A DNA stretch of 64,000 nt from Adlercreutzia faecimuris (GCF_022669055.1 NZ_JAJMLW010000001.1:1054001-1118000), one strand, 5' to 3'; counted from the first letter of the stretch, positions 4,200-49,154 are shown. Program-made: numbers and translations. The notes: a model not told the origin generated them from the letters alone.

Positions 4200-4435
4200 G
4201 CCTGTCGCGGCGCACGAGCCGCATCTACATGGACGAGTTCGACGTGGGAGGCGCGCTCAAGGTGCTCGCCGACCGCATAGAGGAGGGAGGGGGCGCGGCG
4301 CCCTACTACGTGGGCGCCCACCTCGTCCTCAACCTCATCAACAACCACAGCGAGATCAGGGATCAGAGCGTGCTGCTCGCCCTGTTCGACAATCAGCTGC
4401 GCGAGCACGGGGTGCTGGCGCCGGAAGGAGAGTGA
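4196..4435 (+). CDS. Small helical protein in replication module
   Basis: 79 residues from ATG 4196, overlapping the preceding stop as ATGA. Mostly helical, no Cys motif, no recognised domain. It lies between the Sak4-like ATPase and the SSB-like gene in the same operon. Confidence 0.5.
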   Translation: MSLSRRTSRIYMDEFDVGGALKVLADRIEEGGGAAPYYVGAHLVLNLINNHSEIRDQSVLLALFDNQLREHGVLAPEGE

Positions 4436-22108: not shown

Positions 22109-24562
22109 ATGGCCAGGAACGAGGCGAAGGTAAGGTTCGTCGCCGAGACGGAGGGGCTTACCGCCGGCATATCCAAGGTAAACGGCGCAAACAAGGAGCT
22201 GCGAAGCGAGCTGAAGCTGGTCGACGCGCAGATGAGGAGCGGCGGCGAGTCCGCGTCCCTCCTTGAGCAGCGCCAGCGCATCCTCGGGGAGCAGGCGGCG
22301 AACACGGCCGAGAAGGCCGCCATGCTGCAGCAGAAGCTGGAGGCGGCGGAGAGGGCGTTCGGCACGGGCTCGGCCGAGGCCGAGCGCCTGCGCACCTCCC
22401 TCAACTACGTGCGCGTCGACCAGGAGAAGCTGGCCGCCGAGATGGCCTCGACGACCGCGAGGCTCGAGGCCCAGGCCGCCGCAGAGCGGAGCTCGGAGAG
22501 CGCGCTGGACAAGCTGACGGCCACCATCGGCCGCCAGAAGGCGGAGGTCGCGCGTCTCGAGGGCGAGTACAAGAGCGCCGTCGTGCAGTTCGGCCGGTCG
22601 TCTGCCGAGGCGCGCCAGCTGGAGTCCGGCCTGTCGCGCGCCAACTCCGGGCTCGCGCAGAGCGAGGCCAAGATGCAGGAGGCCGAGCGCGCCGCCAAGG
22701 ACCTCGCGTGCGGCCTGGACGACGCGGCCGACAGCGCGCGCGACGCCGGCTCGAGCATCGGGGACATCGCCGCGGGGAACATGCTGGCAGACATGGCCGG
22801 CGGCGCAGCGAGCGCCCTCGCGGGGCTCTCGGAGGCCACCGAGGAGAACCGCGCGGCCATGAACAGGCTCGGAGTGGCCTACGAGTGGTCCGGGCGCAGC
22901 ATCGACGAGGCCAGGGACGTGTACCAGGGCTTCCTCGGCCTGTGCGGGGACAGCGGCCAGGCCGTCGAGGCGGCGCAGCTCATGAACAACCTCGCCGACG
23001 CCGGCGCGAGCATCGACGAGTGGTACGGCATCGCCGCCGGCACCACCGCGGCCTTCGGCGACGCCCTGCCCATCGAGAGCCTGATCGAGTCTGCGAACGA
23101 GACGGTCAGGTGCGGCACGGTGACGGGCGGCCTGGCGGACGCACTCAACTGGACTGCGATCAGCCAGGCGCGCCTGAACGACCAGCTGGGCGACCACCCC
23201 GCCGTCATGGGCGCCTACAACGAGGCCGTCGCGGAGGGGGCGAGCCAGGAGGATGCCATGAACGCGGCCCTGGCCGCCTGCTCGTCCGAGCAGGAGCGCC
23301 AGGAGGTGCTGACGGCCGCGCTGCTGCAGCAGTACGGGGAGCTGGGCGCCGGCTTCGCCGAGGTCAACTCCGACATAGACGCCGCGCGCAGGGCCAACGA
23401 CGACCTCGTGCAGGCGCAGTCGCAGCTCGCCGAGCAGGTGGCCCCGCTGCAGACCGCGGTGACCCAGCTCGCCGCCGATGGCATAGGCCTCCTCGCCGGC
23501 AACCTGCAGACCGTCGTCCCTGTCGTGGTTGGGCTCGGGACCGCCCTTGGCGGCCTCTGGCTCGTCATGAACGGCGCCAGCGTCATCCAGGGCGTCGCGA
23601 CGTCGTTCGGCGCGCTCAACGCCGTCATGGCGGCGAACCCGGTCGGGATAGTGGTCGTCGCGGTCGCGGGGCTCGTGGCCGGCATCATCACGCTCTGGAA
23701 CACGAGCGAGGAGTTCCGCGTGTTCTGGATAGGCGTCTGGGACGGGGTGCGCGCGGCGGCGGGCGACGCCCGGGCGTGGGTCGAGGGCAACGTGATCCAG
23801 CCCATGTCGACCGGGTTCGGGCAGTTCTGCGAGTTCATCAACCTTCTGTTCTCCGACCCGTTCGCCGCCCTGCGCGTCGCGGGGGAGGGCATAATCGCGT
23901 GGTTCTCCTCGAGGTTCCCCGGCGTCAGCTCGACCGTCGGGTCGGTCATCAGGGCGGCCCAGGCGTTCTTCTCCGACCCGTTCGGGGCGCTCCGCTCGGC
24001 CGGGGACGCCGTCGTCGCCGCCATAGGGGCGAGGTTCCCCGGCGTCAGCTCGACCGTCGGGTCGGTCATAGGCGCCGTCAAGGGCTTCCTCGCTGATCCG
24101 TTCGCTCCCCTGCGAAACGCGGTCGACTCCGCCGTGTCGTGGTTCAAGCGCACGTTCCGGCTCGAGATACCGCCCATCAAGATGCCCCCGCTGCCGCACC
24201 CGAAGATCAGCGGGAGCTTCAGTCTCAACCCCCCTAGCGTCCCGCACATCAGCGTCGAGTGGTACGCGAGGGCCATGGACACCGCGACGGTGCTCACGGG
24301 CCCCACGATCTTCGGGGCCGCCGGCGGATCGCTCCTTGGCGGGGGAGAGGCCGGCAGGGAGGTCGTGTCGGGCGAGGGCCACCTGATCGGCCTCATCGAG
24401 GCGGCGGTGTCCCGCAACGTCGACAGGTCCGGCATCGACCGCGTCGTGGCGGCCATCCGGAGGCTCGACGATGGCCTCGGCGGCAAGATCCGCGACAACT
24501 CGCCGCGGTTCCCGGACGAGCGCCAGTTCGGCCGCATGGCGAGGAAGGCGGTGGAGAGATGA
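22109..24562 (+). CDS. Tape measure protein
   Basis: 817 residues: long coiled-coil N-terminal third (to ~residue 220), a helical middle, hydrophobic segments near 475-535 (VVPVVVGLGTALGGLW; VGIVVVAVAGLVAGII). Then ~40-residue repeats (SDPF.ALR.AG......FPGVSSTVGSVI), two full copies and one partial, at about residues 580-665. No peptidase or lysozyme domain is seen. Length sets the tail at roughly 120 nm by the usual ~1.5 angstrom per residue rule. Confidence 0.9.
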   Translation: MARNEAKVRFVAETEGLTAGISKVNGANKELRSELKLVDAQMRSGGESASLLEQRQRILGEQAANTAEKAAMLQQKLEAAERAFGTGSAEAERLRTSLNYVRVDQEKLAAEMASTTARLEAQAAAERSSESALDKLTATIGRQKAEVARLEGEYKSAVVQFGRSSAEARQLESGLSRANSGLAQSEAKMQEAERAAKDLACGLDDAADSARDAGSSIGDIAAGNMLADMAGGAASALAGLSEATEENRAAMNRLGVAYEWSGRSIDEARDVYQGFLGLCGDSGQAVEAAQLMNNLADAGASIDEWYGIAAGTTAAFGDALPIESLIESANETVRCGTVTGGLADALNWTAISQARLNDQLGDHPAVMGAYNEAVAEGASQEDAMNAALAACSSEQERQEVLTAALLQQYGELGAGFAEVNSDIDAARRANDDLVQAQSQLAEQVAPLQTAVTQLAADGIGLLAGNLQTVVPVVVGLGTALGGLWLVMNGASVIQGVATSFGALNAVMAANPVGIVVVAVAGLVAGIITLWNTSEEFRVFWIGVWDGVRAAAGDARAWVEGNVIQPMSTGFGQFCEFINLLFSDPFAALRVAGEGIIAWFSSRFPGVSSTVGSVIRAAQAFFSDPFGALRSAGDAVVAAIGARFPGVSSTVGSVIGAVKGFLADPFAPLRNAVDSAVSWFKRTFRLEIPPIKMPPLPHPKISGSFSLNPPSVPHISVEWYARAMDTATVLTGPTIFGAAGGSLLGGGEAGREVVSGEGHLIGLIEAAVSRNVDRSGIDRVVAAIRRLDDGLGGKIRDNSPRFPDERQFGRMARKAVER

Positions 24563-25405
24563 GCGACGGGTTCACCTACGCCGGCGGAAACGGCGACGTG
24601 ATCGACTTCCTCTCCGAGCCGTACTTTGCCGACCCCACCGCTTTCTGCGCCCATGAGTGGTCGGTGCTGCAGCTCGGCTCGTCGATAGCGGGCCTGGGCA
24701 ACGCCAGCGGCGAGTACGAGGTCAGCGTGGGCATATCAGCCGCCACCCAGGATGGGGGGGCGAGAGGCGTACAGGCGGATGGCCGACGCGTTCGAGTTCG
24801 ACGCCGCGGCCGGCAAGCCCGCCGCGCTGACCGTGAACGGGTACGGGGCGAGGGCCTACGCGACAGCCGTCGGCGTCTCGGAGGACGACTCGTTCGGCCT
24901 CTACGAGGTCACCTGCCAGGTGAGGTTCGTCGTGGACGGCGGGCTCTGGACGATGGAGCACCCGCGCTTCTTCGCAGCCGGGTCGGGAGACGGCCTCAAC
25001 TACCCGTACGACTACCCGTACAACTTCGGCAGCGGCACGGGCCAGCACGTCGCCAACCCCGGCTCGCCGCCCGCGCCGGTCGTGATAACCGTCTACGGCC
25101 CGGCGGAGGGCCCCAAGGTCGTCATCGCCGGCAACTCCTACGAGGTGGACGCCGCCGTTGACGCCGGCGGGAGGCTCGTCATCGACGGCCTGGCCAAGAC
25201 CATCACGCTCTACGACGCCTACGGGCGGGCGGAGAACGCGTTCTCCAAGCGCCGGGGGGTGCAGAGGGAGGGCAGCGGCTCCTACGTGTTCCAGCGCGTC
25301 CCGCGCGGCCAGTCGCCGGTCAGCTGGGACGGCGGGTTCTCGTTCGAGGCGCGCGTCGTCGAGGTCCGCGGCTCGCCGATCCCGGAGGTGCCGCGATGGT
25401 GGTAG
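24559..25405 (+). CDS. Distal tail protein (Dit), frame broken at a G7 tract
   Basis: The ATG at 24559 overlaps the tape-measure stop and opens a Dit-like frame (MSDGFTYAGGNGDVIDFLSE...). At the seven-G run 24754-24760 that frame diverts into Arg-rich nonsense. The true continuation (REAYRRMADAFEFDA... to WDGGFSFEARVVEV) lies one base ahead and runs to 25405. With six G instead of seven the gene would be a continuous 281 codons, the usual Dit size. So it may be phase-variable, mutated, slippage-decoded or a sequencing error. A Dit is normally essential for a working tail tip. Confidence 0.75.
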
Positions 25406-26352
25406 ACGTTGTGTACACGGACGCCGCCGGCGTGGAGCAGGGCATGGTCGACTGCGACCTAGACCTGGCGTACGGCGATGACGAGAACGACTTCGAGGCC
25501 GTCATCCCCTACGGGGCGCAGGTCGCCTACGGGTCGCTCATGTACGTGGACGGCACGGAGTGGGGAGGGGTCGTCAGGGGATTCCGCGAGGACACCACCG
25601 GCCCCGCCCCCGTCCTGACAGCCCTCGGCCAGACGTGGCACGGCATCCTCGCCGAGACGTACGTCTGCCCCGACGGCGACCACCTGGCCGTGTCGGGCGA
25701 CGCCAACGCGGCCATCGCGGCGGTGATCGCCCACGTGGGGCTGTCCGCCGTGTTCGACGTGGAGGCGGGCCCGAGCGGCATCGCCGTGTCCCACCAGTTC
25801 GCACGCTTCTGCGACGCCTACTCGGGCATCAGGGAGATGCTGGCGAAGGCGAACGCGAAGCTGCGGATCACCAAGGATCCCGGCGCCAGGCCGCGCCTTG
25901 CCGCCGTAGAGGCCGGCGAGCACGCGGACGGCGAGATGGGGATACGCATCGGCTACAAGATGCAGCGTACGAGGCCCGTGAACCACCTCATATGCCTGGG
26001 GAAGGGCGAGCTGTCCGAGCGCACAGTCCTGCACCTCTACGCGGACGAGGACGGCAACGTGTCGCAGGGGCAGACGCAGTACGGCCTGGCGGAGCGCCAG
26101 GCGATCTACGAGAACACCAACGCCGAGGACGACGAGCTCATGGCGGACGGCATGAGGGAGCTGGCCGAGATGCAGGCCACGTCCACGGTGACGCTCAGGC
26201 CGCCGGCAGGCATGGAGCTTGAGGTGGGGGACGCCATCGGGGCGTCATCTGAGCGAATCGGACTCTCGGCCATGGCTCGGATCACGAAGACGGTCGTGAG
26301 AATCAGCGGTGGCGCCGTGGAGATAGAGCACGACGCCGACGAGAGGAGGTAG
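25396..26352 (+). CDS. Baseplate hub/tail-tip protein (Gp37-like)
   Basis: 318 residues, starting 10 bases inside the previous gene. Early beta region (YGDDENDFEAVIPYGAQV), a helical middle and a late TVTLRPPAGMELEVGDAIG segment are typical of siphovirus Gp37-like/Tal N-terminal hub proteins. It should sit between Dit and the fibre proteins. Confidence 0.7.
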   Translation: MVVDVVYTDAAGVEQGMVDCDLDLAYGDDENDFEAVIPYGAQVAYGSLMYVDGTEWGGVVRGFREDTTGPAPVLTALGQTWHGILAETYVCPDGDHLAVSGDANAAIAAVIAHVGLSAVFDVEAGPSGIAVSHQFARFCDAYSGIREMLAKANAKLRITKDPGARPRLAAVEAGEHADGEMGIRIGYKMQRTRPVNHLICLGKGELSERTVLHLYADEDGNVSQGQTQYGLAERQAIYENTNAEDDELMADGMRELAEMQATSTVTLRPPAGMELEVGDAIGASSERIGLSAMARITKTVVRISGGAVEIEHDADERR

Positions 26353-26358
26353 CGATAG

Positions 26359-27126
26359 ATGACGGTAGAGCTGGTAACGGGGAAGGGCGCGGACAGCCAC
26401 GTCGGCTCCGATGACATCGGCCTGTATAACGCGCGCACCATAGGCCCCGGCCGCTACATCCTCCACGGATGCGAGGCCACCGTGGTCAACGCCAACACGG
26501 TGCGCATCGGCGAGGGCGAGATGCTGCTGGACGGCAGGTACGTCCGCGTCAAGGGCAGCGAGGACGTGGCCATACAGAGCGGCGTCGTCGACAAGAAGAG
26601 GATCGACCTGATAGCGGTCAGGTACTCCAAGGGGACGGACGGTGTCGAGGACTCGCCCATCGCGGCTATCCCTGGCACGCCGACCGCGGGTGAGCCCGCC
26701 GATCCGGCCCACGTCGACGGGAGCATCCTGGACGGCGACGTGGACGTGGACATCCCCGTCTACAGGGTGAGGGTGGACGGTCTCGCGGTCGGCGACCCGG
26801 AGCTGCTGATAGACCAGGGCCCCGAGCCCTACGTCGGCCACCTGCACGGGAAGGGCGACATCACCGACCTGGCCACGTGGGCCAAGGCCGACAGCAAGCC
26901 GTCGTACACGCCGGATGAGGTGGGCGCGGCGGCCAAGAGCCACAGCCACGTCGCGGCGAGCGTGACCGACCTCAAGGCGTGGCTGCTCGCCAACATCTTC
27001 AGGGTCGGGTACATCTGGCCGTCCCGCGTGGCGACCAACCCGGCCTCGATCCTGGGCGGCACGTGGGTGGAGATCACGGACACGAAGCTGTTCATCGGCG
27101 TCTACCTGTACCGCCGCACGGCATAA
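26359..27126 (+). CDS. Upper tail-fibre/baseplate protein
   Basis: 255 residues. The N-terminal beta domain (residues 1-150, GPGRYILHGCEATV, VRIGEGEMLLDGRYV) resembles receptor-side baseplate proteins of Firmicutes/Actinobacteria siphophages. Then a fibre-type linker (LHGKGDITDLATWAKADSKP, ~160-200) and a C-terminal GGTWVEI-like knob. Probably the adaptor on which the shufflon fibre is mounted. Confidence 0.65.
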   Translation: MTVELVTGKGADSHVGSDDIGLYNARTIGPGRYILHGCEATVVNANTVRIGEGEMLLDGRYVRVKGSEDVAIQSGVVDKKRIDLIAVRYSKGTDGVEDSPIAAIPGTPTAGEPADPAHVDGSILDGDVDVDIPVYRVRVDGLAVGDPELLIDQGPEPYVGHLHGKGDITDLATWAKADSKPSYTPDEVGAAAKSHSHVAASVTDLKAWLLANIFRVGYIWPSRVATNPASILGGTWVEITDTKLFIGVYLYRRTA

Positions 27127-27136
27127 GGAGGGAACC

Positions 27137-27673
27137 ATGAGAATCATCGACGCCGACGGCATCGAGGTCGAAGACCCCGACCTGTCCCTCGGCCGCCTCG
27201 AGCCCGACACGCTCGTCATCGCGAGCCACCCGGCCGTGCCCGAGGTCGAGGAGCTGCGGGAGGAGGTGCTCGTCTGGCCCGAGCCCGGGATGCCCGAGTG
27301 GGACGAGCGCGACGGGGACGGGCGGCTGCTCGCCGCCCTCTACCGCGAGGAGGTCGTCCGCGAGTGGCAGCCAGCCCAGGACGCCTGGGACGAGACCGAG
27401 GACGTGCTGCGCTACGTGCCCTACACGGAAGAGGAGCTGGCCGAGATCGCGCGCGCCGAGGCAGAGGCCGAGGAGGCCCGCAAGAGGGCCGAGGAGGAGG
27501 CCGCCCGTCGCGCCGAGCTGGACGCGTGGCTCGCCGGCGCGCCCGAGCAGGCGGCCGACCTGGACGAGGCCGTGGTTGAGCTGTACGAGGCCCAGTCCCA
27601 GGCGCAGCTCGACACCGACGAGGCCCTGACGGCCCTATACGAGGCCATTCTCTCGATGAACGGAGGAGACTAG
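27137..27673 (+). CDS. Coiled-coil tail-tip accessory protein
   Basis: 178 residues. Acidic N-terminus, then ~80 residues of Ala/Glu/Arg-rich helix (EEARKRAEEEAARRAELDAW) likely to form a coiled coil. Located between fibre adaptor and the XkdX-like gene. No enzymatic domain. Possibly a fibre chaperone or linker. Confidence 0.5.
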   Translation: MRIIDADGIEVEDPDLSLGRLEPDTLVIASHPAVPEVEELREEVLVWPEPGMPEWDERDGDGRLLAALYREEVVREWQPAQDAWDETEDVLRYVPYTEEELAEIARAEAEAEEARKRAEEEAARRAELDAWLAGAPEQAADLDEAVVELYEAQSQAQLDTDEALTALYEAILSMNGGD

Positions 27674-27674
27674 C

Positions 27675-27812
27675 ATGAAGACCATCGCCAAGAGCTACGC
27701 ACGCCTTATCCGGGCCGGCCGCAAGGCGCTCGCCGAGGTGCCCGCCGAGATCGTGCCGGCGCTGCGCGAGGTGGCCCCCGACCTGTTCGAGGAGGCGACT
27801 GATGGCGATTAA
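27675..27812 (+). CDS. XkdX-family-like small protein
   Basis: 45 residues from ATG 27675 after GGAGGAGAC. Sequence KTIAKSYARLIRAGRKALAE followed by VPAEIVPALREVA matches the short XkdX-type proteins found beside phage fibre genes. Overlaps the start of the shufflon fibre by 11 bp, so the two are co-translated. Confidence 0.6.
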   Translation: MKTIAKSYARLIRAGRKALAEVPAEIVPALREVAPDLFEEATDGD

Positions 27813-28251
27813 CTACAAGAAGACCGCCTGGAACGACAACGCCAGCGGCTACACGCCCATCACGCCCACGCGGCTAAACAACATCGAGAACGCCCTCAAG
27901 TCGGTTTGCGACGGCTGGGATTCCGTATCCCAGCCGACCGCCTTCGCCTGCGCGATGCATAACTGCACCAGCTCAGGCGTGCTCAAGGGCTACAAGGTAG
28001 GCCGGCTCGTAACTCTCTACATGACGGGCATCCCCGCGCTGTCGGCCGACCTCGCGGCCTGGAACGGCCGCCAGGTCGCCACGGTGCCGGCCGGCTACAG
28101 GCCGGCGGCCGAGGCATGGCTCCCGGCCTCGTTCGACCGCGGCGGCGGCTACGTCACCATTGCCACTAACGGCGCCGTGACGATCCACGCGCGCGACGTC
28201 GCGCTGCCCAAGGGGTACGGCTTCGCCGTCGGCGGGCCTTACGTATCCTAG
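27802..28251 (+). CDS. Tail fibre with switchable C-terminus (active form)
   Basis: 149 residues. The first ~38 (INYKKTAWNDNASGYTPITP, then TRLNNIENAL) are the constant N-terminus common in phage fibres. The shufflon site 27917-27931 is read through as WDSVS. Everything after it (~105 residues, including VPAGYRP) is cassette 1. The stop codon lies against the convergent stop of cassette 2 (shared CTAG at 28248-28251). Recombination with an inverted site would replace residues ~44 onward with another in-frame tip. Likely the receptor-binding protein. Confidence 0.85.
   Translation: MAINYKKTAWNDNASGYTPITPTRLNNIENALKSVCDGWDSVSQPTAFACAMHNCTSSGVLKGYKVGRLVTLYMTGIPALSADLAAWNGRQVATVPAGYRPAAEAWLPASFDRGGGYVTIATNGAVTIHARDVALPKGYGFAVGGPYVS
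27917..27931 (+). repeat. Shufflon site 1 (forward)
   Basis: GGGAT-TCCGT-ATCCC: 5-bp arms around an asymmetric 5-bp core. At this copy the arms extend to nine perfect base pairs (GGCTGGGAT/ATCCCAGCC, 27913-27935). Encodes WDSVS within the fibre. Confidence 0.9.
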
Positions 28252-28588
28252 AGGATGCGCCAGACGGCCGTGACGGGCGTCGCCGACGAGTATCCGGCGG
28301 CCGTGAAGCCGTTGCCTACGGCGGTAGCCCTGGACAGCATGATGGAGCACCTCTTGAGCGTCAGGGTGTTGCCCGAGATCGCGAACCAGCCGCCCCAGTC
28401 CTGCACGTCCCAGTCGACTACTTCTGGGACGAATTGCGTCGCCGCGAACCGCACGTCTCCGCTCTTCAGGACGACCGGGAAAACCTGCCCGTTTCCGTCC
28501 TTGAACTCAAGCCCGATCACCTTGCACGCGCTCAGGCCGTTGATCGTGACGCTACTCCCAGGGTTTAGGGTACCCGCCCAGAGCCTCT
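28248..28588 (-). CDS. Silent fibre cassette 2
   Basis: No own start is needed: read from site 2 the frame is open for ~113 residues (QRLWAGTLNPGSSVTINGL... to TAVWRIL). Joined to the constant region it gives ...WDSVSQRLW... without a frame change. C-terminal fibre/knob-like, unrelated in sequence to cassette 1. An internal ATG at 28520 might give a 90-residue fragment but lacks a clear ribosome site. Confidence 0.8.
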
Positions 28589-28603
28589 GGGATACGGAAT
28601 GCC
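28589..28603 (-). repeat. Shufflon site 2 (inverted)
   Basis: On the minus strand reads GGCAT-TCCGT-ATCCC. Preceded by CTGAC, whose TGA is the stop of cassette 3. Inverted relative to site 1; shares 20 bp (CTGACGGCATTCCGTATCCC) with site 3. Confidence 0.9.
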
Positions 28604-28604
28604 G

Positions 28605-28855
28605 TCAGCCGACGACGAGCCAGTTGACCAGGAACCCTTTGTGCGTGATGCCAGACGTTGTGAACACGTACAGCGTGAAGCTCGTCGTGGTCTTTCGCCG
28701 GACGCTACAGCCTGCCGGCACCCCGTCCGCCTGGGCGGTCGCCAGCACGGCATAAGAGGTGTCGGGCATGGTTCGCCCGATGCTGACGGTGATTTCGCAA
28801 AAGGCGAAGTTGCCCCACGCTGACAAGTCTCGTCCGCCGGCGTCCACGACGCCAC
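28605..28855 (-). CDS. Silent fibre cassette 3
   Basis: ~83 residues from site 3 to a TGA at 28605, five bases from site 2. Contains MPDTSYAVLATAQADG and TTTSFTLYVFTTSG, the pattern of small phage fibre head domains. Fusion would read ...SVSRGVVDAGGRD.... Not expressible in the present orientation. Confidence 0.8.
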
Positions 28856-28870
28856 GGGATACGGAATGCC
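28856..28870 (-). repeat. Shufflon site 3 (inverted)
   Basis: Minus-strand GGCAT-TCCGT-ATCCC, again with the TGA stop of the neighbouring cassette (4) five bases before the core arm. Starts cassette 3 in frame (SVSRG...). Confidence 0.9.
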
Positions 28871-28871
28871 G

Positions 28872-29173
28872 TCAGAACCCGATGGGGTAGGACGCGGTGC
28901 CGGTGCGCTTGTCCGACGAGCCCGTGTTGCCGTAGTTGCCCACCTCTATGACGCCGCTCGCGAACACCGTCATGTAGCCCGTACAGCTCGCCCCGTTGGC
29001 GGTAAGCATCGGCACTTGGATATCCACCCTGGGGCGGTACCCCTCAGGGATGGTATAGGGGCACCGCACCGTGTCCCACGAGCCGGCGCCGGTGCGGACG
29101 TCCTTGGCCATGACCCATACCTCGCCGTTGTGGCGCTGCACGTACCAGCCATTCCCCTCATACATCTTGACGC
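28872..29173 (-). CDS. Silent fibre cassette 4
   Basis: ~100 residues from site 4 to a TGA at 28872. Shares with cassette 1 the motif IPEGYRP (VPAGYRP in cassette 1) and a following beta-rich layout, so these two are distant homologues. Fusion reads ...SVSRVKMYEGNGW.... Silent in this orientation. Confidence 0.8.
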
Positions 29174-29188
29174 GGGATACGGAATCCC
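29174..29188 (-). repeat. Shufflon site 4 (inverted), overlaps recombinase stop
   Basis: Minus-strand GGGAT-TCCGT-ATCCC, identical to site 1 over 15 bp. Its outer edge contains the last base of the TAG stop of the recombinase gene, so every inversion preserves the recombinase. Confidence 0.9.
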
Positions 29189-30171
29189 TATGCGGCCATC
29201 GGCAGCGCCTGGGCCGACGCGAGGTCTATCCCAGCGTACATGTCGTCGCAGGTCTTGCCCATGACGCGCCGGGCCACCTTGCGCTGGGCGCGCTTCGCGC
29301 TCGCCTGGGTGAGGGCGAAGTAGTACCGGTAGGTCGTCTGGATGGACGAGTGCCCCATCATGGCGGCCACCGTCTCCATGGGCACCCCGGCCTGCGCGGC
29401 GATGGAGCCCCAGGTGTGCCGCAGGTTCTTCATCGTGATCCTGGGCAGCCGGTTGCGCCGTATCCACGCCTGGATGCGGTAGGCCGCCTGGCGCGGCGTG
29501 AGGGCGCCGATGACGAGCCCGCGGGGCCGCCCCTTGGCCACCCACAGCTGGTGCAGCCGGTCTAGGGCCCAGGGCGGCAGGCAGCAGTCGCGCTCGCCCT
29601 TGGCGGTCTTGGTGGGCCACTCGCGCGCCCCCTCCGAGCCCTGGACGAGCGTGGAGCGGATGGGCACCGCGCCCGTGCGCCAGTTGACGGACTCCCAGCG
29701 CACGGCGTAGCACTCGCCCGGGCGCGTCCCGAGGGCCGCCTGGATGATGGCCGTGGCCTCGCACTCGCAGCCGACGAGCCCGCGTATGAGGCGCTTGAGC
29801 CGCCTCTGGGTCAGCGTCTCGGGCCTGTAGGCGGGCTTGCGGGGCATCTCGACGCCGCGGGTGGGGTCGGCGACATAAAGACCCCACTTGTCGATGGCCC
29901 AGCGGATCACCTGCCGCAGGCACTTGTAGGCCTTCTCCGCGCCCCCGGGGCCGGCTGAGGGCGCGAGCTCGTCCACCCAGTCCTGCACGGCGTCCCGGGT
30001 GATGTCGCGGATGGCCATGCCGCCCCAGCGCGGCAGCACGTGGCGGCGGATGGACGACTCGTAGCCGTCCACGGTGTGCGCCCTCTTGCGGCGGCGCTTC
30101 TCGGGCAGGTAGTGCTGGGTTGCGATCTGCCCGATGGTCATGGCCATGGCGGCCTCGGCTGTGACGGTCAT
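29188..30171 (-). CDS. Tyrosine recombinase (shufflon recombinase; possibly also integrase)
   Basis: 327 residues from ATG 30171, behind CGAGAGGAGCCCACC; an ATG 36 bases upstream has no ribosome site. SAM-like N-terminal core-binding domain (~10-115), catalytic domain from ~115. Expected catalytic residues: R150 (GTRPGE), K188, R251 (KNLRHTWGS), H274 (GHSS) and Y283. The usual His two residues before the second Arg's Leu is Lys248 (KNLR instead of HxLR). Its stop overlaps site 4 and it is transcribed toward the cassettes, so the shufflon is its likely substrate. Whether it also integrates the prophage at 32.7 kb is open. Confidence 0.85.
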   Translation of the reverse strand: MTVTAEAAMAMTIGQIATQHYLPEKRRRKRAHTVDGYESSIRRHVLPRWGGMAIRDITRDAVQDWVDELAPSAGPGGAEKAYKCLRQVIRWAIDKWGLYVADPTRGVEMPRKPAYRPETLTQRRLKRLIRGLVGCECEATAIIQAALGTRPGECYAVRWESVNWRTGAVPIRSTLVQGSEGAREWPTKTAKGERDCCLPPWALDRLHQLWVAKGRPRGLVIGALTPRQAAYRIQAWIRRNRLPRITMKNLRHTWGSIAAQAGVPMETVAAMMGHSSIQTTYRYYFALTQASAKRAQRKVARRVMGKTCDDMYAGIDLASAQALPMAA

Positions 30172-30223
30172 GGTGGGCTCCTCTCGTTTTCCGGTCAGCG
30201 ATCCCATCGTATGAAAGGATGTG

Positions 30224-30670
30224 ATGCCAATGCCAGGAGAGGACGCGGCGACGCACTACATCGACGCCATGGCGGCGGCGGGGGAGGGCCCGATGTGGCT
30301 CTTCGCCCTCGGGGTGCTGGCCATCGCGGCCGTCGTCGCCTACAAGATCCTCCCCGTCGTCAAGGAGTGCAAGCTGCGCTCCATCGACATCGAGGAGCAG
30401 CGCGAGCAGCGCAAGGCCGAGGAGGCCAGGATGCGCGACGAGCGCGACCGGGAGAGCGCGGCCATCAACGCGCGGGCGGTGGACGCCCAGGAGAGGTCTA
30501 CCGCCGCCATGGCGGCCATGACCCAGCAGATGGCCGTGATGTCGGGGCAGCTCGAGATGTCCCGCGACAGGAGCGCCCACATGGGCGGCCAGATCGACGA
30601 CATGGCCCACAAGGTGAGCGAGATCCACGGGGCCGTTGTCGTAAACCAACCACCTAACAGCAAGGAGTGA
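30224..30670 (+). CDS. Membrane-anchored coiled-coil protein (holin-like accessory)
   Basis: 148 residues from ATG 30224 (GTG 30221 also possible), AAAGGA upstream. One TM helix (~residues 23-40) followed by a long charged coiled coil (EEQREQRKAEEARMRDERD) and a C-terminal helix. Divergent from the recombinase, first gene of the lysis cassette. Phage holin-associated or anti-holin proteins have this form; no direct family match. Confidence 0.55.
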   Translation: MPMPGEDAATHYIDAMAAAGEGPMWLFALGVLAIAAVVAYKILPVVKECKLRSIDIEEQREQRKAEEARMRDERDRESAAINARAVDAQERSTAAMAAMTQQMAVMSGQLEMSRDRSAHMGGQIDDMAHKVSEIHGAVVVNQPPNSKE

Positions 30671-30676
30671 TGCAAA

Positions 30677-31000
30677 ATGACCATGATCGAGGCAGTCGCG
30701 GTGATCGTCGCCGCACTGGCCGTGCCCTACGGGGTGCAGCTCATCAAGCACGGGGCCGTGTCCGGCTCCGCCGCCCGCTGGCTCGCCATCGGCGTGTCGG
30801 TCGCGGCCGGCCTGCTCTGCGGCCTGGCGGGCGGGCCGCCCCAGTCCCCGGGCGCCTGGCTCGCCTGCGTGATGTCCACCGTGGGCGGCGTGCAGGTGGC
30901 CTACTCGACGTACAAGTCTGTCGGCGTGACGTCCAAGTGGCTCGACGCGCTCGCGGACGTGGCGACCGGCTGGGAGACGACGCCCGAGGACGAGCGATGA
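30677..31000 (+). CDS. Holin
   Basis: 107 residues with three hydrophobic helices (about 3-22, 33-52, 60-78) and a charged C-terminus. Located just before the endolysin. Typical small phage holin that would release endolysin across the membrane. Confidence 0.75.
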   Translation: MTMIEAVAVIVAALAVPYGVQLIKHGAVSGSAARWLAIGVSVAAGLLCGLAGGPPQSPGAWLACVMSTVGGVQVAYSTYKSVGVTSKWLDALADVATGWETTPEDER

Positions 31001-31158
31001 CGCGCCAGGACTGGGCGGACGCCGCCGTGTTCGCCGTGTGCGCGGCCGTCGCGCTGGGGTGCTGCGGGCTCATGTGGATCGCGCAGCACCCGCTGGACGA
31101 GCCCGGGCCGGCTCCCATCGCGGCATCGGCCGAGGAGGCGCGCCATGGCGACCGCTGA
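30997..31158 (+). CDS. Small single-TM lysis accessory protein
   Basis: 53 residues; ATGA overlap with the holin and 14-bp overlap with the endolysin. One TM helix (residues ~9-28), Pro/Ala-rich tail. Possibly a second holin or regulator. Confidence 0.5.
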   Translation: MTRQDWADAAVFAVCAAVALGCCGLMWIAQHPLDEPGPAPIAASAEEARHGDR

Positions 31159-31882
31159 CGAGCTCGTGGCCCTCGCCCAGGGGGAGGTCGGCTACTCGCG
31201 CTGGGACGACCCGCTGCCGGGCACCAAGTACGGCAGGTGGTTCGAGGAGCAGGTGGACAAGGATCCGAGCAACTTTGACTACGGGGCCAGCGGCGTGGCC
31301 TACTGCGCCATGTTCGTCAGCTGGTGCCTGTGGATGCTCGGCGTCGAGTGCGCCGGGATGCCGTCGGCCTACTGCCCGGCCATACACAACCACCAGCACC
31401 TGAGCGCCGGAGAGCTGGAGCCGGGCGACCTCGCGCTGTTCGACTGGGAGGACGACGGCACCGACGACCACGTCGGCATCGTCGTGTCCAACGACCGCGA
31501 GGCGCGCGTGATCCGCACCATCGAGGGCAACACCGCGGGCGGGCGCGTCGCCGAGCGCACGCGCGCCTACTCGACGGTCTGCGGGGGCATCCGTCCCCGC
31601 TTCGACGCGGCACCGGCCGCGAAGCCCTCTGCTCCGACTGCTCCGACCGAAGGAAAGGAGGAGACGGTGTACGCCTTCCCCCTCGTCAAGCGCGGCGCCG
31701 AGGGCGACGCCGTGCGCCTCATGCAGGCCGCCCTCAACGTCCGCGCCGCCGCCAAGCTCAGCGTGGACGGCGACTACGGAGACAAGACCGGCAAGGCCCT
31801 CGTCGCCTGGCAGCGCCGATGCGGCGTCGAGGCCGACGGAGACTGCGGCCCCATCACCTGGGGCACGCTGCTCTGCGACTAG
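31145..31882 (+). CDS. Endolysin, CHAP amidase plus peptidoglycan-binding domain
   Basis: 245 residues. CHAP domain (1-155) with catalytic Cys in AYCAMFVSW (near 53) and His in DDHVGIVVS (near 108). A Pro/Thr linker follows, then a PG_binding_1 domain (~175-245, LVKRGAEGDAVRLMQAALN, VDGDYGDKT). Should cleave host peptidoglycan at lysis. No signal peptide, consistent with holin-dependent release. Confidence 0.9.
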   Translation: MATADELVALAQGEVGYSRWDDPLPGTKYGRWFEEQVDKDPSNFDYGASGVAYCAMFVSWCLWMLGVECAGMPSAYCPAIHNHQHLSAGELEPGDLALFDWEDDGTDDHVGIVVSNDREARVIRTIEGNTAGGRVAERTRAYSTVCGGIRPRFDAAPAAKPSAPTAPTEGKEETVYAFPLVKRGAEGDAVRLMQAALNVRAAAKLSVDGDYGDKTGKALVAWQRRCGVEADGDCGPITWGTLLCD

Positions 31883-31920
31883 AAACGATGATGTCCGCAA
31901 AGTGGTAGGATGAGACAGAG

Positions 31921-32511
31921 ATGAGAGGAGGGCCAGTGGCGCTTGGGTGGTATAACACATCTGACATGAGTAGCATGGGGTGGACGTGCGGATACTGCGG
32001 GAGGGCTGTTGGCGGGAGCGTTGGATACCATCGCAATGCGACAAGCGATGATTCGCGAGTCATCTACATCTGCCCCCATTGCGAGAACCCGACGGCGTTC
32101 GTCCGTAATGATTCCGGCCGGTATGAGCAGTTCCCCGATGCTGTGCGAGGCAACGAGGTGGGAAGCCTGCCGCCCTCAGTGGCATCGCTCTACGGAGAAG
32201 TGCGGCGCTGCATCCAGTATACGGCCTATACCTCCGCAGTTCTTGGCATGAGGAAGCTGCTCATGCACGTAGCCGTGGATAAGGGCGCTCCCGAGAACTG
32301 CGCCTTCATCTCGTACATAGACTTCCTCAACGACAACGGCTGGATTCCACCGAGCGGTCGGGACTGGGTGGACGCCATCCGGAAGGGCGGCAACGAGGCG
32401 ACCCACGAGATAGTCCTCATGTCGGAGGAGGATGCGGTGAGGCTCCTGGACTTCGCCGAGATGTTGCTGAAGATAGTGTACGAGTTCCCGGCTAAGATCA
32501 ACCCCTCGTAA
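31921..32511 (+). CDS. DUF4145 family protein (prophage accessory gene)
   Basis: 196 residues from ATG 31921; GTG 31936 with GAGGAGGG is an alternative. N-terminal zinc ribbon (CGYCG ... CPHC). C-terminal helical DUF4145 region with VLGMRKLLMHVAVDKG and GNEATHE. DUF4145 proteins occur in defence and mobile-element contexts; the function here is unknown. Lower GC than the lysis genes and its place between endolysin and attachment site mark it as a lysogeny-expressed cargo gene. Confidence 0.65.
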   Translation: MRGGPVALGWYNTSDMSSMGWTCGYCGRAVGGSVGYHRNATSDDSRVIYICPHCENPTAFVRNDSGRYEQFPDAVRGNEVGSLPPSVASLYGEVRRCIQYTAYTSAVLGMRKLLMHVAVDKGAPENCAFISYIDFLNDNGWIPPSGRDWVDAIRKGGNEATHEIVLMSEEDAVRLLDFAEMLLKIVYEFPAKINPS

Positions 32512-32526
32512 ATCGCTCTGCCTGAT

Positions 32527-32570
32527 GCGCCCCGTCCCCGCATAACGCTGGAGGCGGGGCGCCTTTTGCT
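32527..32570 (+). terminator. Terminator at the prophage right end
   Basis: GCGCCCCG (32527-32534) pairs with CGGGGCGC (32555-32562) across a loop that can pair further, followed by CTTTTGCTTTT. It ends transcription of the DUF4145 gene. Confidence 0.65.
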
Positions 32571-32571
32571 T

Positions 32572-32713
32572 TTCGTGTACAAATTCGTGTACAAATAAAC
32601 GGATTTGAAGCGTACTATTCCGTATTGTCCGATAGTTCGAATAATACCGAATTATTCGTTTGATCAGGTAAAACGTATTCGAACGATAACGTCTGATAAT
32701 GTCCAATTTAGAT
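32572..32713. promoter_or_regulatory. Attachment-site arm region with repeats
   Basis: AT-rich, no gene. Contains a tandem 12-bp repeat TTCGTGTACAAA (32572-32583, 32584-32595), a perfect inverted repeat CGAATAAT-ACCGA-ATTATTCG (32638-32658) and scattered ATTCG/GATA motifs. Such clusters beside an att core are typical arm-type integrase or excisionase binding sites. Confidence 0.5.
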
Positions 32714-32758
32714 TTCGCAACGTGGGGGTCGTGGGTTCGAATCCCATCATCTCCACCA
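32714..32758 (+). other. Right attachment site: 3' half of a tRNA, probably tRNA-Ala(CGC)
   Basis: Reading back from CCA at 32756-32758: A73, acceptor strand CATCTCC, T arm GTGGG-TTCGAAT-CCCAT, variable GGGTC, anticodon 3' stem CGTGG and loop TTCGCAA. That gives anticodon CGC; U70 and A73 fit alanine tRNA. No 5' half lies upstream here, so the phage restored a tRNA 3' end on insertion, with the complete tRNA expected at the left junction. Confidence 0.7.
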
Positions 32759-32770
32759 CGGTAACTCGAG

Positions 32771-32798
32771 CGGGGCCGGATCGTCTGATCCGGCCCCG
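32771..32798. terminator. Bidirectional terminator between att site and tag
   Basis: Perfect 12-bp stem CGGGGCCGGATC/GATCCGGCCCCG with a 4-base loop. Placed between the tRNA remnant and the stop of the convergent tag gene. Confidence 0.7.
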
Positions 32799-32801
32799 CC
32801 T

Positions 32802-33371
32802 TCATTTCCCCGCCTTCTCCTCGTGCAGGAAGCAGCCCTCGTCGTGGGACCAGATGACGCCGACGGACTGGAGGTAGGCGTAGGTGACGGTGGTGCCGAC
32901 GAAGCGCATGCCGCGGCGGCGCAGGTCGGCCGACACCGCGTCGGAGAGCGGCGAGGACGCGAGCCCCGCCTCGCGCACGACCTCCCCGCCCGTCCAGCCC
33001 CACAGATACGCGTCGAAGTTGCCGAACTCGCGCTGGATGGCGCGGAAGGCGCGCGCGTTGCCGATGGCGGCTTCGATCTTGCGGCGGTTGCGGACGATGC
33101 CGGCGTCGGCCATGAGCCGCTCGACGTCAGCGGGGCCGAAGGCGGCGACGGCGTCCAGGTCGAAGCCGGCGAAGGCGCGGCGGAAGGCCTCGCGCTTGTT
33201 CAGGATGCACTCCCAGCTGAGCCCGGCCTGGAAGCACTCCAGCACGAGCATCTCGAAGAGGCGCCCGTCGTCGTGGCAGGGCACGCCCCACTCGCGGTCG
33301 TGGTAGGCCAGGTAGGTCGGGTTGTGCGGGTTCGCCCACGCGCACCGCGCCTTGCCGTCGTTCCATTCCAT
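32802..33371 (-). CDS. tag: DNA-3-methyladenine glycosylase I
   Basis: 189 residues, start MEWNDGKARCAWANPHNPTY with GGAG-type site upstream. Contains CAWA...YHDREWGVP, the LFEMLVLECFQAGLSWECIL helix block and C-terminal SHDEGCFLH, all Tag signatures (zinc ligands Cys/His at both ends). Removes 3-methyladenine from alkylated DNA. First intact chromosomal gene after the prophage. Confidence 0.92.
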   Translation of the reverse strand: MEWNDGKARCAWANPHNPTYLAYHDREWGVPCHDDGRLFEMLVLECFQAGLSWECILNKREAFRRAFAGFDLDAVAAFGPADVERLMADAGIVRNRRKIEAAIGNARAFRAIQREFGNFDAYLWGWTGGEVVREAGLASSPLSDAVSADLRRRGMRFVGTTVTYAYLQSVGVIWSHDEGCFLHEEKAGK

Positions 33372-33499
33372 GGGCGCTCCCTCCGCCGTCGTGGTCGCCG
33401 CGCGGCCGCGGCGCGGGGTTCCATGGTAGCGCATCGGGTGCGGGGAGGGCGGGGGCGCCGCGCCCGACGCGTCCCGCGGCGCGGCGCCTTTCCGCGTTG

Positions 33500-34387
33500 T
33501 CAGACGCGTCCGTAGCGCAGGCCGAAGCGCTCGGCCAGGGCCGCGGCGACGGCGTCGTCGTCGGGCAGGTCGATGATGTCCCTGCGGCCGTCCTCGCGGA
33601 TGGTGAGGCGCCGATCGCGCAGGCCGACGTAGCCGCGTGGCGTGCGGAGGTTGGCCAGGTCGTGGTCGCGGAAGAGCGCGCCGGGGCTCGAGAAGGCCAG
33701 GTTGAGCGCGTCGAAGTCCTGCTCCTCGACGGCGGCCGCGCACAGCTCGAGCTCCACCTGGCGCCGCGGGGGAGCGGCCTCGTTGAACAGGTCGCCGGCC
33801 GCGCTCGTCACGCGCTCGACGCGCCACCAGCCGCCGCCGGCGTCCGCGGCGACGAACGTCTCGCCTGCGACGGCCTGCTCGACGCCGTCGCGCAGCGGCA
33901 GCGCGCCCAGGGGCATGGGGCCGCCGAAGCCCACGTCCGCGAAGAGCTCCTCGCCGCCGAGGGCGACGACCATGCCGCGGTGGTTGACGGGCATGCGGCC
34001 CGGCCGGCCCAGCACGGCGCGGCAGAGCACGGGCCGCACGCTGAAGCCGAGGGAGGCGAGCAGGGCCTGGAACAGCCGGTTCAGCTCGAAGCAGTAGCCG
34101 CCGCGCCCCTCGGCGACCACCTTGCGGAACAGGGCGTCCAGCGCGAGGTCGGGCGTCCCGCCGGCGCGGCGCAGCCCGATGGTCTCGAAGGGCACGCTCA
34201 GCTGGTGGAGCGCCACCAGCGCGTCGAGCGTCGCGCGGTCGGCCCGCGCCGCGCCCGCGAACTCGATGCGCGCCAGGTACGCGTCGACCTGCGCGGGCGC
34301 GAGCATCGGTTCCGCGCTCGCTGTGCCCGCCTCCTGCGCGCCACCCCCGGCAGCCCTCGCGGTATCCTCGTGCTGGGAATCGGCCAC
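33500..34387 (-). CDS. Arylamine N-acetyltransferase
   Basis: 295 residues from GTG 34387 (GAGGAGGA upstream); ATG 34438 would add 17 residues without a ribosome site. Catalytic triad positions visible: Cys in GRGGYCFELN, His in VNHRGMVV, Asp in FADVGFGG. Transfers acetyl from acetyl-CoA to arylamines/arylhydrazines; gut bacterial NATs act on drugs such as mesalamine. Divergent from the truncated serpin, with only ~85 bp between. Confidence 0.88.
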   Translation of the reverse strand: MADSQHEDTARAAGGGAQEAGTASAEPMLAPAQVDAYLARIEFAGAARADRATLDALVALHQLSVPFETIGLRRAGGTPDLALDALFRKVVAEGRGGYCFELNRLFQALLASLGFSVRPVLCRAVLGRPGRMPVNHRGMVVALGGEELFADVGFGGPMPLGALPLRDGVEQAVAGETFVAADAGGGWWRVERVTSAAGDLFNEAAPPRRQVELELCAAAVEEQDFDALNLAFSSPGALFRDHDLANLRTPRGYVGLRDRRLTIREDGRRDIIDLPDDDAVAAALAERFGLRYGRV

Positions 34388-48260: not shown

Positions 48261-49154
48261 GCCCCCTCCTCTCGCCTCGCCGCCCGCGCGGCCGGCCGTC
48301 CGGCGGCCGTCCCGCCGGCGCCGCCCCGCGCCCTCGTTGCGCCCATTGTACCCCGCGCGCCCCGGATGCGCCGCATCCGCCCGCGCGCCGGCGCCGTCCC
48401 GCGCGTTCGGCTGCCCACGTCGCCCCGCGCCCTCGGCGCGCCCATTGCGCCCGCGCGCCCCGGATGCGCCGCATCCGCCCACGTGTCGGCCCCGCGTCTT
48501 CGTCCCGTGCCCTTGGCCGTGACGGCATGGCGCCGCTTGCCGCCGTCCTGCGCGCGACCCGCCCCTCCCGGCCGTCTCCGGCTGGGTCGTGGTAGCCCGA
48601 TCGCCCGTTCATATCCATTTCGTCGAGTTTCCCGAGGCTTGGAGCGCCTTTTCGGGGGGATTTGGGGGCATTCGGCGCCCGCGAAAAAACGTGACCTGGG
48701 GAAACTTCACGCCCGCGTCGCGCGCGGCGGGGTCATGCCTCGGGAAACTCGCCAAAATGGATATGAAACGCCGTTTCGCCTGCATCCCGCGCCTCCTGCG
48801 CGCCACTGGGCGCGACGGGGCCCGTGCCGTCCGGCGTCCCGCGCCCCGCCGGCCCCGCACGCTGCGCCCCGGCCCTGCGCCTCCGCCGCGCCCCGCCGGC
48901 CCCGCGCCCCGCCGGCCCGGCCCGCGCCTCGTCTCGGTCCCGCGCCCTCGTCGCGCCCATTGTACCCCGCGCGCCTCGGATGCACCGTGTCCGCCCGCGC
49001 GACGGCCCCGCCCGTCCTCGGCCGTGACGGTATGGCACCACTTGCCGCCGCGCCGGGCCGCCGCCCGCCCGCCGCCGGTACAATTACGCGCACCCGACCA
49101 CGGAGGACGGCCCGCCTGCGCGGCGCCCTCTTCCCCGACCTCTAAGGAGGCCCC
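48261..49154. repeat. Repeat-rich intergenic region
   Basis: 894 bp without a supported gene. Three copies of a ~65-bp GC-rich unit (CGCGCCCATTGTACCCCGCG...GATGCGCCGCATCCGCCC type) lie at about 48321-48387, 48420-48485 and 48938-49001; the last two stay similar for ~120 bp. Between them a 29-bp inverted repeat (48610-48638, 48737-48765; 27 of 29 match) bounds a 156-bp element. Upstream of the dehydrogenase gene only AAGGAGG is evident. Confidence 0.65.

Follow-up and report, generated by a model that had tools for sequence, protein, structure and literature searches.

A Rin-type shufflon predicted to exchange the receptor-binding head of an Adlercreutzia faecimuris prophage

Between the tail and lysis genes of a prophage in Adlercreutzia faecimuris, a short gene start, four open cassettes and a tyrosine recombinase gene lie among copies of one 15-bp repeat, which raises the question of whether this phage can switch part of its host-recognition protein, and by means of which enzyme. 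The window, i.e., the whole stretch of DNA analyzed (64,000 nt; positions refer to it unless given as genome coordinates with the prefix C1), covers the right-hand 32.8 kb of a 36.9-kb prophage bounded by a 48-bp perfect direct repeat that corresponds to the 3' end of tRNA-Ala(CGC). attL lies in the 3' end of this tRNA gene, outside the window (C1:1049844-1049891), and its copy attR is found at 32714..32761 on the plus strand. PHROG assignments order the genes as tape measure (22109-24562), Dit (24752-25405) and minor tail protein (25396-26352), all on the plus strand, followed by the locus under study, a holin-like gene and an endolysin. We conclude that the locus is very probably a working Rin-type shufflon of a siphovirus-like prophage with an Eggerthellaceae host. 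Support for this reading comes from the uniqueness of the sites, the reading frames, the presence of a separate integrase, a predicted fold, inversions among relatives and assemblies whose contigs diverge at the sites.

A search for nucleotide similarity between the locus and phage records found none, the upstream tail gene used as a query against viral contigs recovered one distant relative only, and an Rfam scan of 25000-33500 gave no match. A DUF4145 gene between the endolysin and attR (31921-32511) is likely a prophage accessory gene, and a gene beside the prophage integrase (C1:1051263-1052213) matches AbiD (PADLOC, E 3e-43) and is a candidate phage-defense gene. Outside the prophage, repeats of about 120 bp that are about 80% identical occupy 48273-49013.

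Sites, frames and the predicted receptor-binding head

The four 15-bp sites follow the pattern GGSATTCCGTATCCC. Site 1 (27917..27931, plus strand; GGGATTCCGTATCCC) lies inside the receptor-binding protein gene, and the other three are inverted relative to it: site 2 (28589..28603, minus; GGCATTCCGTATCCC), site 3 (28856..28870, minus; GGCATTCCGTATCCC, with the arm GGCAT) and site 4 (29174..29188, minus; GGGATTCCGTATCCC, with the arm GGGAT), the last of which shares one base with the recombinase stop (29188-29190). A scan of the 2.79-Mb genome that allowed at most one mismatch returned these four sites and no others, and the reversed pattern, run as a control in the same whole-genome scan, yielded 0 matches. 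Each cassette is preceded, in frame, by this short asymmetric repeat, which is rare elsewhere in the genome, as is characteristic of rix sites. Together with its flanks (27910-27940), site 1 folds into a perfect hairpin of 10 bp (CGGCTGGGAT/ATCCCAGCCG; z -6.1 in single-strand folding) that depends on the cassette 1 sequence past the site and is not shared by the other three sites. A structure-based mechanism was set aside as unsupported, since sites 2-4 do not clearly stand out in single-strand folding.

The constant start of the receptor-binding protein (Rc; 27802..27931, plus strand) comprises 43 codons (MAINYKKTAWNDNASGYTPITPTRLNNIENALKSVCDGWDSVS) and ends within site 1. An RBS-like GGAGG precedes it, and its start overlaps the stop of a small 45-aa gene (27675..27812, plus strand; PHROG 1382). 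Cassette 1 (27932..28251, plus strand) currently occupies the expressed position, and cassettes 2 (28248..28588), 3 (28605..28855) and 4 (28872..29173), all on the minus strand, are silent. Their variable parts amount to 105, 113, 83 and 100 residues, respectively, and joining the four in silico, at the site, to the constant start of 43-44 residues gives open proteins of 149, 156, 126 and 143 aa. Cassettes 1 and 2 converge with stops overlapping at CTAG (28248-28251), and the stops of cassettes 3 (28605) and 4 (28872) fall 1 nt from the next site. The variable cassettes thus lie between the recombinase gene and Rc, which is the layout of Rv segments. Cassette 2 has homologues in three related loci (L168, L244 and L247), and cassette 4 is related by homology both to cassette 1 and to the cassette on the recombinase side of another (L225). 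The first-pass annotation had described four 15-bp sites, one forward and three inverted, open in-frame cassettes of about 105, 113, 83 and 100 residues, the CTAG overlap of the two convergent cassettes and the overlap of the recombinase stop with site 4. The coordinates and the whole-genome scan confirm the sites, the in silico joins reproduce the lengths, and both overlaps are present. The open frames of the silent cassettes point to their occasional expression.

What would be switched is best indicated by the structure predicted for the expressed protein. The AlphaFold model (pLDDT 81.4) consists of a short helix followed by a beta-sandwich, and its residues 42-149, i.e., the cassette, superimpose on the head of the TP901-1 receptor-binding protein (RBP) with a Z score of 12.7 and an rmsd of 1.9 Å over 98 residues. 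All of the best PDB hits are receptor-binding proteins, of Listeria phage PSA and of three lactococcal phages (TP901-1, p2 and a third). None of the cassettes scored above the Pfam threshold. Cassette 1 is therefore predicted to be a receptor-binding head of the TP901-1/p2 type that starts at the site. Since the cassette coincides with the predicted head domain, a swap would replace the whole receptor-binding domain. The predicted fold covers cassette 1 only; homologues of this cassette include cassette 4 and many of those at other loci.

RBPs of the TP901-1/p2 type carry a C-terminal head beta-sandwich and are encoded with the tail genes, and the expressed protein shares both features, the fold by prediction. 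Of the earlier designation as a tail-fibre shufflon, the second term stands, and the first gives way to the head fold predicted for the expressed cassette; on the strength of the model, the product would be better named a small receptor-binding protein with a TP901-1/p2-type head. The N-terminal stretch of Rc matches PHROG families of head-fibre and minor-tail proteins, and the weak match to PHROG 5711, "head fiber protein" (E 2e-4), could be taken to mean that the shuffled protein decorates the capsid rather than serving as a tail receptor-binding protein. We consider this very unlikely, as the gene sits at the end of the tail module, past the tape measure, Dit and minor tail protein genes, and its C-terminal domain has the predicted fold of baseplate receptor-binding heads.

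A second, dedicated recombinase and its proposed action

The Rin-type tyrosine recombinase gene (29188..30207, minus strand) encodes 339 aa matching Pfam PF00589 and PF14659, with core-binding and catalytic domains and no arm-binding domain. Its model (pLDDT 85) has Tn1549 Int and the integrase of phage Brujita among the nearest PDB structures. Related records annotate this protein as an integrase, and it matches integrase families, as would be expected if it were the integrase of the prophage and the repeats were incidental or secondary att-like sites. This reading is extremely improbable and was rejected because a separate integrase (C1:1049979-1051151, outside the window), carrying the arm domain PF14657 and a catalytic domain, adjoins attL and the 48-bp att repeat in tRNA-Ala. 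Moreover, the rix core is not present in att, and both tree and motif set the recombinase apart from the compared integrases of this genome. The armless recombinase is thus a second, dedicated enzyme.

In a tree of 48 proteins, 40 recombinase relatives, including those of the Bifidobacterium phages PMBT6 and ctl617, split from eight other integrases of this genome, a split to be read with care, given that two of the eight outgroup integrases are identical and the outgroup branches are long. The recombinase is about 33-34% identical to its PMBT6 and ctl617 homologues. ctl617 carries seven TTCCGTAACCC sites in both orientations beside its recombinase gene, and PMBT6 carries three. The box II His of the present enzyme is replaced (motif ITMKNLRHTW), as it is in all clade members inspected, which have K, Q, R, T or other residues three positions before the box II Arg; the genome's own integrases keep this His. 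By spacing and invariance, the nucleophile is probably Y296.

The replaced His and the single arrangement in the strain assembly might indicate a shufflon by descent only, in which the recombinase or its expression has died and cassette 1 has become fixed. We regard this as unlikely. The recombinase is full length, and its catalytic positions other than the box II His are invariant in the alignment; the replacement is found in all clade members inspected, also in those whose loci are inverted or branching, a pattern that speaks against simple decay; and the silent cassettes are still open. The shufflon reading and the role given to the recombinase in the first-pass annotation are well supported by the separate integrase, the armless recombinase clade that extends to Bifidobacterium phages, the predicted receptor-binding head of the expressed cassette and the inversions in relatives described below.

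We propose that the armless recombinase would act on the 15-bp rix sites in inverted orientation. Crossover inside ATTCCGTATCCC would keep the left arm GGGAT attached to the constant start, and a new cassette would arrive in frame with the right half of the incoming site, so that an inversion pairing site 1 with any of the other three would swap the whole receptor-binding head domain. If inversion is restricted to opposed sites, 12 arrangements are computed to be reachable, encoding four alternative proteins; of these arrangements, two express cassette 1, two cassette 2, four cassette 3 and four cassette 4. On this reading, the present recombinase would act on the present sites and be active in this strain. 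The four tips would presumably recognize different hosts, and inversion would then change the host range.

Inversion and exchange in related loci

Related loci were found via relatives of the recombinase in one-per-species genomes, viral contigs and phage records. A total of 107 viral-contig stretches match the 15-mer, mostly as single sites and probably by chance, and viral contigs were used only if several sites and a recombinase were present. The resulting survey comprises 33 loci with 143 cassettes. In all cassettes but one (142/143), the frame set by the site stays open over 45 codons or more, with a median open length of 87 codons, compared with 21 and 28 for the two alternative frames across the 33 loci. 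Most cassette stops lie 0-11 nt from the next site, except where two cassettes converge, and any forward sites precede the inverted ones in 32 of the 33 loci. The largest cassette set seen belongs to L175 (CATLBX010000001.1, 6977-9313), where 11 of the 12 sites share one orientation.

Thirteen site cores occur between loci, TTCCGTATCCC in 16 of them and others such as TTCGCTGTCCC, TTCCTTATCCC and TTCCTTGTCCC elsewhere. Within each locus the core is constant, which is partly built in, since an identical 11-mer served to collect the sites; a search of the related loci for near-misses found them in one only (L239). In 28 of 31 loci the in-gene site has GGGA as its left arm, whereas this arm varies at the other sites. 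This pattern suggests that the left arm remains attached to its flank and that crossover occurs within the shared core, which would allow cassettes to be swapped without disturbing the frame.

Segments in opposite orientation are seen when the locus of Adlercreutzia caecimuris B7 (L178) is compared with those of two metagenomic phage contigs, L230 (IMGVR_UViG_3300027374_000008) and L233 (IMGVR_UViG_3300005461_001043): a site-bounded segment of 577 bp is 94% identical and inverted, and a second inverted segment is 95% identical. In the Adlercreutzia muris DSM 29508 assembly, contig 10 begins with the same stretch of exactly 127 bp with which contig 17 ends, made up of 115 bp of one cassette and a 12-bp site, past which contig 10 continues into the recombinase flank and contig 17 into the receptor-gene flank. 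Therefore, two junctions are present in the sequenced DNA. The overlap fits an assembly graph of 127-base words that branches at the site, a branch that a 12-15-bp repeat by itself would not produce. Coexistence of different arrangements is a likelier source of the two junctions than a second copy of that cassette. In principle, a second copy of the cassette start could cause such a split; L180 (CANPHS010000003.1) has a 174-bp cassette in two 100% identical copies, at 4304 and 5242, at the recombinase and receptor-gene ends, as a duplication or as an assembly trace of inversion. Contig ends also fall at sites in Enterorhabdus sp. P55, the closest relative, with a nearly identical constant start, in which one contig stops on the final base of the Rc site and another starts 3 bp ahead of the recombinase-side site. 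Contigs of Enteroscipio rubneri begin such that the site ends at base 127.

The same comparisons hint at exchange between phages. From rix toward the receptor gene, L230 and L233 are 100% identical over 4,916 bp and a further 4,708 bp within the fetched sequence, i.e., at least 9.6 kb. They switch exactly at rix: beyond it the recombinases are only 70% identical and nothing else aligns, and the recombinase end of L233 is 97% identical to that of A. caecimuris B7. Likewise, a Parvibacter cassette is 98.6% identical to one of L227, with flanks of 92.5% and 64% identity. Both cases would fit site-bounded exchange; assembly error or older recombination are further possible sources. It is conceivable, if rather doubtful, that rix also mediates site-specific exchange between phages, that gut Coriobacteriia phages share a pool of receptor heads and that the recombinases involved form the His-lacking clade.

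The sharing of cassettes between phages at up to 100% identity would also be expected if the repeats were traces of ordinary homologous recombination that swapped head domains between phages, with no dedicated recombinase involved. This is highly improbable, as no more than 12-15 bp of DNA are shared at the junctions, these coincide precisely with the site, the sites alternate in orientation and the loci differ in their core.

Relation to known shufflons

The R64 Rci/pilV shufflon, which the first-pass annotation named beside Rin, likewise relies on a tyrosine recombinase and on multiple inversion of C-terminal segments, but it diversifies a plasmid pilus adhesin and uses different sites. Rin is closer than Rci. 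Features of Rin found here are the dedicated armless recombinase, its relation to recombinases of Bifidobacterium phages with rix-like sites and the TP901-1-like variable part represented by cassette 1.

Rin shufflons were described in 2018 in the Bifidobacterium prophages Bb423phi1, Bl157phi1 and Bl30698phi1, where an armless recombinase distinct from the integrase acts with rix sites (TTCCCTAACCC) and inversions were seen in sequence reads (PMC6109161). This rix matches TTCCGTATCCC at 9 of 11 bases, and both systems have an armless recombinase apart from the integrase, an Rc and Rv segments, the Bifidobacterium Rv resembling the C terminus of the TP901-1 RBP. The Bifidobacterium systems differ in their hosts, in a constant part of 168 residues and in recombinases that, judged by the phage homologues, are about 33% identical to the present one. 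Min of p15B and Gin/Cin of Mu/P1 also exchange variable parts of host-recognition proteins by inversion (PMC6109161), but they rely on serine recombinases, in contrast to the present enzyme of the tyrosine family (Phage_integrase).

A rin shufflon was also described in 2022 in clade 1 prophages of Eggerthella lenta, a member of the Coriobacteriia, with the repeat ttccgtat and a tyrosine recombinase beside small Rv genes and Rc, the integrase lying at the opposite wing (PMC8778435). This report overtakes the statement in the first-pass annotation that no description from Coriobacteriia was known. The hosts of the two loci belong to the same bacterial class, the 8-bp core (TTCCGTAT) is identical, and in both cases the prophage sits in a tRNA gene, with its integrase at the far end from the shufflon. 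By its description, the E. lenta system has a much larger Rc, an Rv that is often an H-type lectin and insertion at tRNA-Leu (PMC8778435), compared with an Rc of only 43-44 residues, tRNA-Ala and an expressed cassette with a predicted TP901-1/p2 head in A. faecimuris. The present locus is therefore an addition to the known Rin shufflons and not the first from Coriobacteriia, as far as the open-access literature goes, beyond which further descriptions may exist.

New here are the definition of the 15-bp site, the family-wide distribution, the predicted fold and the hints of site-bounded exchange. A scarcely studied Rin switch is thereby extended from E. lenta and Bifidobacterium to many Coriobacteriia, including Adlercreutzia, Enterorhabdus, Parvibacter, Gordonibacter, Enteroscipio, Collinsella and Olsenella, and is tied to the exchange of a whole predicted receptor-binding head. 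The variable cores within a precise 15-bp site help to map the crossover, and how an armless Rin recombinase avoids deletion between direct sites becomes testable on many natural site sets.
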